Both the position numbers and the translations under genes were made by a program. Positions 11,766 to 46,141 of a stretch of DNA of 64,000 bases are shown in pieces (the stretch's first letter is position 1; every line of letters begins with the position of its first letter). The notes under the pieces were generated by a model. The model made no database searches, was not told the origin of the DNA, and worked only from the letters and a program-made list of their open reading frames with translations. Source of the stretch: Methylobacterium sp. W2 (GTDB lineage Bacteria > Pseudomonadota > Alphaproteobacteria > Rhizobiales > Beijerinckiaceae); contig NZ_VMOA01000015.1 in assembly GCF_020662345.1 (NCBI RefSeq), positions 1 through 64,000 of the forward strand, given 5' to 3'.

Positions 11766-11878
11766 CCTCATTCTGAGGTGCCCTTTGCTTGAGCAAAGGG
11801 CCTCGAAGGAGCCATCCAGAAATCGCGCGTCGACTGGAGGCCTCCTTCGAGGCCGCTACGCGGCACCTCAGGATGAGG
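11766..11878. repeat. Dispersed cloverleaf-like intergenic repeat, copy A
   Basis: The outer arms CCTCATTCTGAGGTGCC and GGCACCTCAGGATGAGG enclose inner arms GGCCTCGAAGGAG and CTCCTTCGAGGCC. Between the arms are two side hairpins, CCCTTTGCT-TG-AGCAAAGGG on the left and GCCGC-TAC-GCGGC on the right. The same architecture recurs at 38301-38411 and 43073-43186, with a half copy at 46124-46141. It begins 42 bp 3' of the minus-strand hydrolase gene. Confidence 0.85.
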
Positions 11879-11920
11879 TTAACCTTTGGAAAAAACCCTC
11901 AAAATGGCTCGGCTGGACAC

Positions 11921-13393
11921 TCACCGTCCCGGCGGCAGCCGGGTGAAGCGTCGGGCGGTGATCCGCCGGGCAACCGAGCGGTCGATCCTCGGGCCGGCCC
12001 GCTCGATGCCGTCGCGGTGAATCATGACGCCGGTCGGGCGCCCGTCCGGCTCGATGTCGAACGCCACGCGGATCGCCCCGTCCCGCGCTACGAAGTCCTG
12101 CCCTACGAAGTCCTGCCCCACGAAGGCCCTGTCGCTCTCGGGGGTGAGACTGATGCGGGGCTCGCCCGATCCCTGTCCGAGGCCCTGGGCGATCAGGCGG
12201 TCGCCGTCGCGGGTGATGCCGAGGACCGAGCGCGGGCCGGTCCGGTAGAAACCGACATAGCGGTCGAGGACCGCCCGGCCGACGCTGATCTCGGTCCGCG
12301 CCGGCTCGCCGAGATAGAGCGCCGCCAGTTGGCGCGAGAGGGCCTGGGCCGGCACGATCTCGGTATTGCCGAGCACCACGATGGTGAGCCCGAGATCGGG
12401 GTAGGAATCCTTGATCGCGCTGAAGCCGCTGATGAACCCGCCATGCGACCACAGCCGGCGTCCGTAGGCCGTGCCGATGTACCAGCCGAGGCCGTAACCG
12501 TGGCCGTAATCCGTCACCATCGCCCGGCGCGACTCGTCCGACAGGACGCGGCCGGAGAACAGCGCCCTGTCCCAGGCGACGAGGTCGTCGAGGGTGGAGG
12601 CGAGCATGCCGGCGCCCGACGGTGCGCTGGCGGCTAGCGGCAGGGCCTGGCGCCACTCGCCCGCTTCGCGGCGGTAGCCGGTGGCGCGCCGGGGGAGGAT
12701 CGCGCCCGGATCGGCGTCACGGGTCGAGGACAACCCGGCCGGCGCCAGGACCGCGTCGGTGAGGTAGCGCGCGAAACTCTGGCCGGTGACCCGCTCGATC
12801 AGGCCCGCCAGGAGGATGTAGCCGGTATTGCTGTATTCGTGGCCGGTCCCGGGCGGGAACAGCAGATCCTCGCGGTAGAGCAGGGCCACCGTCTCCATCG
12901 GCGCGCGCTCGAGCCGGCCGAGTTGCGTCGCGTAGCCCGGCAGGGCGGTAACGTTGGGCAGGCCGGAACTGTGGTTGAGGAGCATCCGGATCGTCATCGC
13001 AGCCCAGGCCGGCGGCAGTTCGGGCAGGTAGCGGATGGCGGGATCGTCGAGGGAGAGGGAACCGGCCTCGGCCAGTTTCAGGATCGCCGCCGCGGTGAAC
13101 TGCTTCGTGATCGAACCGATGCGAAACAGGGTGTCCGGCGTGTTGGGGACGGCCCATTCCCGGTTGGCCAGGCCATAGGCGCGGCGGAACACGGGGATGC
13201 CGTCCCGTGCCACGATCACCGCGCCGGAGAAGACGCCGCCTTCCGCGTGGGAATCCATCAAAGCGGCGGCCTTGCGCGCGAACGCCTCCGCCTCGCCGCC
13301 GATGGCTGCGCCGGGCGGCCCCTCCTGCGCGGCGGCGGGGGCGGCGAGCAGCAGCGACAGGGCGCAAGCGCAGGCGAGAACGCGGAGAAACAT
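11921..13393 (-). CDS. Exported serine hydrolase of the class C beta-lactamase/DD-peptidase fold
   Basis: The 490-residue protein has a signal peptide (MFLRVLACACALSLLLAAPAAAQ shortened to about 22 residues) and so acts in the periplasm. The active-site motifs are S94-I-T-K97 (nucleophile and base), Y187-S-N in GHEYSNTGY, and HGGF replacing KTG. HGG is typical of esterase or peptidase-like members rather than true AmpC enzymes. A C-terminal domain after about residue 380 is predicted to be beta-rich. It contains an exact in-frame 15-bp tandem duplication (12089-12118) giving VGQDFVGQDF. The upstream frame to 13915 lacks a plausible leader, so the ATG at 13393 is used. Substrate unknown. Confidence 0.9.
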   Translation of the reverse strand: MFLRVLACACALSLLLAAPAAAQEGPPGAAIGGEAEAFARKAAALMDSHAEGGVFSGAVIVARDGIPVFRRAYGLANREWAVPNTPDTLFRIGSITKQFTAAAILKLAEAGSLSLDDPAIRYLPELPPAWAAMTIRMLLNHSSGLPNVTALPGYATQLGRLERAPMETVALLYREDLLFPPGTGHEYSNTGYILLAGLIERVTGQSFARYLTDAVLAPAGLSSTRDADPGAILPRRATGYRREAGEWRQALPLAASAPSGAGMLASTLDDLVAWDRALFSGRVLSDESRRAMVTDYGHGYGLGWYIGTAYGRRLWSHGGFISGFSAIKDSYPDLGLTIVVLGNTEIVPAQALSRQLAALYLGEPARTEISVGRAVLDRYVGFYRTGPRSVLGITRDGDRLIAQGLGQGSGEPRISLTPESDRAFVGQDFVGQDFVARDGAIRVAFDIEPDGRPTGVMIHRDGIERAGPRIDRSVARRITARRFTRLPPGR

Positions 13394-38258: not shown

Positions 38259-38300
38259 GATCGGGTGCTCTCAGAAACTCGACACGATTCCACCCCGCTA

Positions 38301-38411
38301 CCTCATCCTGAGGTGCCGGAGCAAAGCGCAGGCCTCGAAGGAGGGCTCCAAAACTCACAGAGCGATCTGGAGCCCTCCTTCGAAGCCGCTTCGCGGCATC
38401 TCAGGATGAGG
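38301..38411. repeat. Dispersed cloverleaf-like intergenic repeat, copy B
   Basis: Outer arms CCTCATCCTGAGGTGCC and GGCATCTCAGGATGAGG; inner arms GGCCTCGAAGGAG and CTCCTTCGAAGCC. A right-side hairpin GCCGC-TTC-GCGGC is conserved and a left-side one is imperfect. It lies between dmrA and the SDR gene, 27 bp from the SDR stop. Confidence 0.85.
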
Positions 38412-38438
38412 TGGCCGGGTGGGACTAAGTAAACCAGT

Positions 38439-43072: not shown

Positions 43073-43186
43073 CCTCATCCTGAGGTGCCCGCGACAGCGG
43101 GCCTCGAAGGAGGCGTCCAGGGCCGGCGGCGCTATCTGGAGCCCTCCTTCGAGGCCTACGCTTCGCTTCGGCACCTCAGGATGAGG
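43073..43186. repeat. Dispersed cloverleaf-like intergenic repeat, copy C
   Basis: Outer arms CCTCATCCTGAGGTGCC and GGCACCTCAGGATGAGG; inner arms GGCCTCGAAGGAG and CTCCTTCGAGGCC. The left hairpin is GCCCGC-GACA-GCGGGC. It lies between radA and alr, 22 bp from the alr stop. Confidence 0.88.
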
Positions 43187-46123: not shown

Positions 46124-46141
46124 CCTCATCCTGAGGTGCCC
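46124..46141. repeat. Half copy of the dispersed repeat, copy D
   Basis: CCTCATCCTGAGGTGCCC matches only the left outer arm of copies A-C, with no right arm found downstream. It lies in the dnaB-rplI gap (45981-46285), which also contains the terminator at 46175-46209 and otherwise shows nothing recognisable. Confidence 0.7.

Follow-up and report, generated by a model that had tools for sequence, protein, structure and literature searches.

The REPIN (PMC3116915) consists of two inverted REPs and a spacer, is non-autonomous and intergenic, and may take a long-hairpin or clover fold. The BIMEs of Escherichia coli (y-z1 and y-z2; PMC8266576) combine unlike REPs in inverse orientation, and have a GTAG tag and a TnpA-REP enzyme. 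In the CGTC-tagged REP superfamily, which is found mainly in alphaproteobacteria, head-to-head dimers predominate and heterodimers are common, and the elements lie between convergent or same-direction genes with no transposase association; stems are 8-9 bp, loops are 4-5 bp, and the stem starts with a paired AT (PMC3733652). Br-REP1 and Br-REP2 of Bradyrhizobium are alphaproteobacterial palindromic intergenic repeats at 3′-UTRs, and a Br-REP1 site shows three stem-loops (PMC5082802). Here and below, statements on published work refer to the available portions of the papers cited.

Methylobacterium sp. W2 carries a repeat family of this kind, three copies of which lie in the 64,000-nt stretch of DNA that was analysed (contig NZ_VMOA01000015.1, positions 1 to 64,000 of the forward strand; the window). 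The layout, the non-autonomous and intergenic character and the long-hairpin or clover folds are shared with REPINs, but the genome is without a detected RAYT gene and the family has two outer-flank subfamilies and tip modules. Unlike REPs in inverse orientation are common to the family and the E. coli BIMEs, whereas the family has neither the GTAG tag nor the TnpA-REP enzyme. With the CGTC-tagged REPs it shares an outer CCTC, a listed variant of the CGTC tag whose letters are present in 519-526 of 533 halves, as well as the predominant head-to-head dimers, the common heterodimers, an alphaproteobacterial host, the location between convergent or same-direction genes and the lack of an associated transposase. 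However, its tips are mostly self-folding modules of 7-19 nt, the AT pair is lost, and the inner arm ends in GGAG. As the CCTC tag is shared but the stem and loop format differs, the Methylobacterium family is a relative, and not a member, of the CGTC-tagged superfamily. RIME1 of Rhizobium, a ~100-bp intergenic palindromic mosaic element, is likened to it by description only. RIME1 is cited in PMC2573895. The printed consensus of Br-REP1 and Br-REP2 (PMC5082802) differs from that of the CCTCATCCTGAGG family.

For REPs, heterodimers and location at gene 3′ ends have been described before. New parts, of which no description was found in the literature searched, are the tips of the DNA mini-hairpin type and the apparent in-place inversion (see below). 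The available main text of PMC3733652 does not name Methylobacterium, and neither the word 'inversion' nor mini-hairpin loops were found in that text. The available text of a Methylobacterium genome paper (PMC2680597) refers to MITEs and palindromes found at genomic islands without naming the present repeat, and Methylobacterium is not mentioned in the available portions of PMC12306157 and PMC6006769. In the open-access papers searched, the core and arm motifs led to no paper on a bacterial repeat among those listed, as judged by title, and no report tying REPs to mini-hairpin or GNA loops was found. The family is probably a RAYT-less family of head-to-head REP dimers of the REPIN/BIME kind, with a folded DNA form, that is copied by an enzyme other than a Y1/RAYT transposase.

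Copies in the window

Each core is arranged in the order outer arm, tip, inner arm, ~30-nt spacer, inner arm, tip and outer arm. Read from its end inward, each half is one unit, CCTCATCCTGAGGTGCC-tip-GGCCTCGAAGGAG, and the two halves face each other. The coordinates, outer arms, inner arms and side hairpins given for three copies in the initial annotation were all confirmed. These copies were designated A, B and C, and a fourth piece in the window is a single outer arm. The features are as follows.

11766-11878, minus strand (from the outer flanks): copy A core, subfamily 1
11766-11782 and 11862-11878: copy A, outer arms
11783-11798 (16 nt) and 11855-11861 (GCTACGC, which is GCGTAGC on the other strand): copy A, tips
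11799-11811 and 11842-11854: copy A, inner arms around the spacer
11879-11910, minus strand: copy A, degenerate subfamily-1 left extension (minus-strand sequence GAGCCATTTTGAGGG..TTCCAAAGGTTAA; limits by inspection)
38301-38411, unstranded: copy B core, subfamily 2
38301-38317 and 38395-38411: copy B, outer arms
38318-38330 (13 nt) and 38388-38394 (7 nt): copy B, tips
38331-38343 and 38375-38387: copy B, inner arms around the spacer
38286-38300, unstranded: copy B, left extension of the outer arm (GATTCCACCCCGCTA; limits by inspection)
38412-38424, unstranded: copy B, right extension of the outer arm (TGGCCGGGTGGGA; limits by inspection)
43073-43186, unstranded: copy C core, subfamily 2
43073-43089 and 43170-43186: copy C, outer arms
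43090-43099 (CGCGACAGCG) and 43157-43169: copy C, tips
43100-43112 and 43144-43156: copy C, inner arms around the spacer
46124-46140, plus strand: remnant, one outer arm alone

In single-sequence RNA folding, side hairpins form on both sides of copy A, but in copies B and C the tip regions partly cross-pair. As had been noted, a minus-strand gene stops close to each copy, 42, 27 and 22 bp from A, B and C, respectively (gene 3′ ends at 11921, 38439 and 43209); the left extension of copy A runs in the direction of the adjacent gene's 3′ end. The genes adjoining the window copies are ordinary, predicting an aldehyde dehydrogenase, a beta-lactamase-family protein, a DHFR-like protein, a short-chain dehydrogenase, an alanine racemase and a KaiC/ChlI-domain ATPase that we take to be RadA-like. 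No Rfam family matches the window at gathering scores.

At ~11680, beside copy A, is a piece of another inverted repeat (GCAAAACTCCCGATCACCG..), which has a fuller copy at ~L176:5277-5363 and is mostly missing at the orthologous place in the related genome G008.

Family size, subfamilies and distribution

The 17-bp outer arm, allowing up to 2 mismatches, occurs 58 + 55 times in the 5.39-Mb genome and its reversed control does not occur, so the repetition is not due to chance. A covariance model built from 22 copies gave 118 strand-matches, corresponding to 60 places, and this genome-wide search bore out the proposed dispersed, foldable REP-like family. Head-to-head dimers predominate, with 60 places against 4 halves elsewhere in the stretches scanned, at least one of which is a subfamily-1 element with an internal deletion. 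Genes predicted with a simple caller contain one of the 60 copies and overlap another 2 by 11 bp at a gene end; the rest are intergenic.

The copies were split by flank score into two subfamilies of 30 copies each, which share one core. In subfamily 1 the core is part of a ~220-bp unit with inverted ends (AGCCTGTTTGAG.. and ..GATCAAACAGGCT), while the arms of subfamily 2 tend to lengthen symmetrically (TCCnACCC.. / ..GGGTGGGA). The inverted ends of the subfamily-1 consensus (AGCCTGTTTGA..TCAAACAGGCT) would be consistent with a MITE of a DDE insertion sequence, as would a 3-bp duplication in some copies of the repeat; matching triplets were seen by eye in three (TCA at C37:33025, TGA at C22:54043 and TCG at C125:83704). 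However, no matching duplication was seen in the other copies looked at, the end motif occurs 13 + 13 times compared with 8 + 7 for a control, and subfamily 2 is without such inverted ends. A MITE appears to be an unlikely source of the family.

Besides the Methylobacterium sp. W2 genome, the covariance model has matches in 20 of 24 congeners, and in none of 16 genomes that belong to other families of the order. A wider draw gave matches in 32 of 297 genomes of the order (20 of 122 genera), at lower scores beyond the genus. Up to 92 candidates per genome were scored in the congeners and the 16 genomes of other families, up to 150 in the W2 genome and in a set of 19 genomes, and up to 12 in the wider draw, and copy numbers in relatives are lower bounds. 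Among the matches listed in a pattern scan are Methylobacterium, Methylorubrum, a Beijerinckiaceae MAG, Kaistia and a Rhodospirillales MAG. The 19 genomes, which were chosen from pattern-scan loci, all match the covariance model, as their choice predicts. In several copies of other families the ends are still ATCC..GGAT, which suggests a common stock across the order.

Three further arrangements were observed. The half-units of the Rhodospirillales MAG (L134) are near the Methylobacterium type, and either transfer or a binning error is possible. Two subfamily-1 elements are in tandem at L176:3246-3556 (G000 contig C49), in a local cluster of five in ~10 kb. Another dispersed repeat of ~102 bp, at L176:15574-15675, has many matches in G003 and G004 and is absent at the G003 orthologous place.

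Covariation of arms and tips

Changes that preserve base pairing had been taken to indicate a folded RNA or DNA form. They were counted in a pool of 269 cores, from which identical copies and copies failing the arm pattern were left out, with 533 of 538 halves parsed and both halves parsed in 264 elements; the shuffle controls ignore relatedness. In a set of 22 copies, pairing in the three named stems is 96.2%, compared with 96.0% after shuffling. In the 264 elements, pairing is 92.7% for the outer stem (92.3% expected), which has 16 compensated cells (shuffle mean 9.3, maximum 18), and 94.0% for the inner stem (93.7% expected), which has 9 (shuffle mean 3.0, maximum 11). There is no clear covariation beyond conservation in the long shared arms, though the inner stem exceeds the shuffle mean. 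A covarying fold made of the long outer and inner stems is not borne out by these pair counts and was rejected.

Pooled over tip types, the outermost two tip pairs are 69.8% paired, compared with 34.5% after shuffling, and both sides have changed in 354 cases (at most 156 in shuffles); this pooled pairing mirrors the discrete tip types. Within types, both-side changes number 15 in 19-nt tips (shuffle maximum 10), 7 in 16-nt tips (maximum 5), 4 in 10-nt tips (maximum 2) and 2 in the inner pairs of 13-nt tips (maximum 1), with none in 7-nt tips. At the two base pairs under the tip, compensated cells number 36 and 16 (shuffle maxima 8 and 5). Whole tip modules are also swapped between orthologues, e.g. 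at C40:23851 and C49:98842 relative to G008. The paired changes are real in the tips and tip bases, largely as the exchange of whole hairpin modules, but the long shared arms take no clear part in them.

Tips that change as whole modules at these two sites would also be expected if tip pairing were a by-product of mutation, with quasi-palindrome template switching copying one arm to the other and no selection needed. This process would leave unexplained both the GNA and GNNA loops found in different stems and the unlike tips within one element (see below), and it is rather unlikely to be the source of the pairing.

Tip motifs and predicted folds

The motif C-GNA-G or C-GNNA-G is present in 421 of 533 halves, compared with ~91 when the letters are shuffled. 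Tips of 7 nt are GCGNAGC in 117 of 131 cases, where N is T in 41, A in 31, C in 24 and G in 21, and 13-nt tips are GNA-GCGNAGC-GNA in 104 of 156. The triloop is GNA in 137 of 154 cases and the tetraloop is GNNA in 99 of 157, GNRA being 20 of these, and TTCG was found once. DNA mini-hairpins that have a GNA or GNNA loop and two or more G-C pairs are extraordinarily stable, and GCGAAGC melts at 78 °C (PMC4686876). Tip lengths are mostly 7, 10, 13, 16 and 19 nt, a 3-nt step, and few tip types exist.

Other families are represented by 20 copies with different stems, drawn from 16 genomes; in these, GNA accounts for 15 of 25 triloops and GNNA for 6 of 13 tetraloops, a weaker echo of the Methylobacterium tips. 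Of the distinct triloop stems, 17 of 31 carry a GNA loop, and the GNA signal is in part due to shared descent.

GNA is read on the top strand in one half of the element and on the bottom strand in the other. As GNA tips are on opposite strands and orientation is not clearly tied to transcription (see below), a single transcript would carry one tip in the GNA form. The opposite-strand tips would point to DNA as the working form, though RNA can also form the tip hairpins, which counts against it. A more specific possibility, which can be put forward only tentatively, is that the working form is single-stranded DNA with C-GNA-G or C-GNNA-G mini-hairpins as recognition knobs on opposite strands, that the knobs are required to be unlike, and that a recombinase or a replication-linked process uses them to copy the element and to flip it.

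The two tips of one element belong to the same class in only 8 of 264 elements, whereas 2000 shuffles gave a mean of 63 and never fewer than 39. In all 19 elements of other families for which both tips could be parsed, inspection shows two different tip stems. Pairs of unlike tips are already known for REPs, as most REP families prefer heterodimers, for which protection from enzymes such as SbcCD has been suggested (PMC3733652). Energy folding with DNA parameters favours one long hairpin over two halves (mean -40.4 vs -17.8 kcal/mol), and the two inverted REPs are predicted to be able to form one hairpin. In the predicted folds of 59 natural copies the tips are mainly self-folded in 18 and mainly paired across in 41, and the predicted long hairpin and cross-paired tips in 41 of 59 copies would weigh against separately folded halves. 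When the tips are made alike in silico they pair across in 59 of 59 copies (mean -55.7 vs -40.4 kcal/mol).

Position relative to genes

A gene 3′ end faces the element at 55 of 60 copies, within 60 bp in 36 of these, and the relation to gene 3′ ends holds beyond the window copies. Gaps with an element are convergent in 24 cases, same-direction in 28 and divergent in 5, while the gaps of at least 30 bp without an element number 18, 137 and 42, respectively. Convergent gaps are enriched (24 of 57 with an element vs 18 of 197 others, Fisher p=6e-8), and p=0.03 for divergent gaps. A bias of REPs toward gene 3′ ends has been reported previously (PMC3733652).

This location would suit an RNA element at mRNA 3′ ends that blocks 3′-5′ decay or tunes read-through, with selection on the RNA fold. 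Related Bradyrhizobium REPs are seen in 3′-UTR RNAs (PMC5082802), and RNA roles for REPs generally are argued for in PMC3733652. However, a T-run, the signature of an intrinsic terminator, follows only 1 of 120 core ends, and the termination role suggested in the initial annotation is not upheld. Nor is orientation relative to transcription clearly fixed: among 30 same-direction copies, the shorter tip is the one nearer the upstream gene in 20 (p=0.10), comprising 13 of 19 in subfamily 2 (p=0.17) and 7 of 11 in subfamily 1 (p=0.55), so there may be an orientation bias, and orientation differs between species at several sites. Of 157 tetraloops, only 20 are GNRA and 1 is UUCG, the loops favoured in RNA, and the long stems that would dominate the RNA fold are without clear covariation. 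On this evidence an RNA element is unlikely.

Site history and inversion

Site B is occupied in the Methylobacterium sp. W2 genome, G003, G004 and G008, and is short and without the element in 6 congeners. Site C is occupied in W2, G003, G008 and G009, contains a remnant in G004, and is short and without the element in 5. The element-free spacers at the two sites are 20-72 bp, and at the remaining loci the flank was not found or the gap is unrelated. Absences were taken from the spacers at sites B and C only, and 14 relative rows without a detected core were not counted as such. At C104:107042, alignment places the element at the orthologous site in G003 too. In G010 (L237), site C is occupied by another palindromic element with a similar layout (CGTCATTCCGGGGC.. 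and ..CCGGAATGACG), which by eye resembles Br-REP2 (PMC5082802).

For the comparison of orthologues, 43 G008 and 17 G003 stretches were picked by model match; in the orientation test, two core rows per site were dropped as duplicate or too long, and two ambiguous pairs were left out. Orientation is kept in 30 and inverted in 8 of the 38 orientable pairs with G003, G004 and G008. Inverted pairs make up 8 of 20 in subfamily 2 and 0 of 18 in subfamily 1 (Fisher p=0.003). Copy B, for example, is inverted in G003 and G004 and has the same orientation in G008. In 6 of the 8 inverted pairs, from four sites (B, C69:12480, C38:106860 and C38:112510), the inverted orthologue ranks first when all 60 own copies are compared. 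Because it is still the closest, a flip is likelier than a new insertion, and inversion in place appears to have occurred at a minimum of four sites, all of subfamily 2. At C30:79733 and for copy C in G008, the inverted orthologue is not the closest own copy, and replacement instead of a flip is possible.

When only first-ranking pairs are counted, 6 of 16 are inverted in subfamily 2 and 0 of 5 in subfamily 1, which is not significant (p=0.26). In subfamily 1 the orthologue does not rank first in 13 of 18 orientable pairs, a pattern in line with replacement or with conversion among copies. Short arms around a spacer can flip by recombination or template switching, and the inversion data alone imply no enzyme.

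Search for a mobilising enzyme

A profile for the Y1/RAYT family (PF01797) that matches 5 of 14 control genomes has no match in the Methylobacterium sp. W2 genome. In the genus, 39 of 41 genomes (W2 included) are without a match and 2 have one; the copy-rich genomes G003, G008 and G020 are among those without. A REP-associated tyrosine transposase had been raised as a candidate, and a classical REPIN moved by such an enzyme would account for the head-to-head two-REP plan, the intergenic location and the clover fold proposed for REPINs (PMC3116915). With no gene here and in only 2 of 41 genomes of the genus, it is close to refuted for present mobility and a very improbable explanation overall, while a lost or strongly diverged HUH enzyme is possible. 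The description of the family as a RAYT-mobilised REPIN was dropped. No copying enzyme was found, and there is no consistent target duplication across copies.

Proposed explanation and significance

In the preferred explanation, a RAYT-less family of REP dimers, each unit would form a hairpin made up, from the outside inward, of CCTC, a stem, a self-folding tip and a return stem, and the pair would be a non-autonomous dispersed repeat of the REPIN/BIME kind, found mainly in gaps beside gene 3′ ends. The selected form would be folded single-stranded or cruciform DNA, because the C-GNA-G and C-GNNA-G tips are on opposite strands of an element without a clear transcription orientation. Copying would occur in trans, through an enzyme of another kind than the Y1/RAYT transposases. 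Inversion may arise from the long outer arms, by recombination between them or by template switching. Gaps at gene 3′ ends may be favoured because insertion there would do the least harm.

Paired changes in such repeats may reflect module exchange and not selection on RNA, and should be read with caution. REP dimers are common in bacteria, and the strand-specific hairpin tips, of a motif known to be extremely stable in DNA, the unlike tips in each element and the apparent in-place inversions between close species would provide concrete handles on how those without RAYT are copied.
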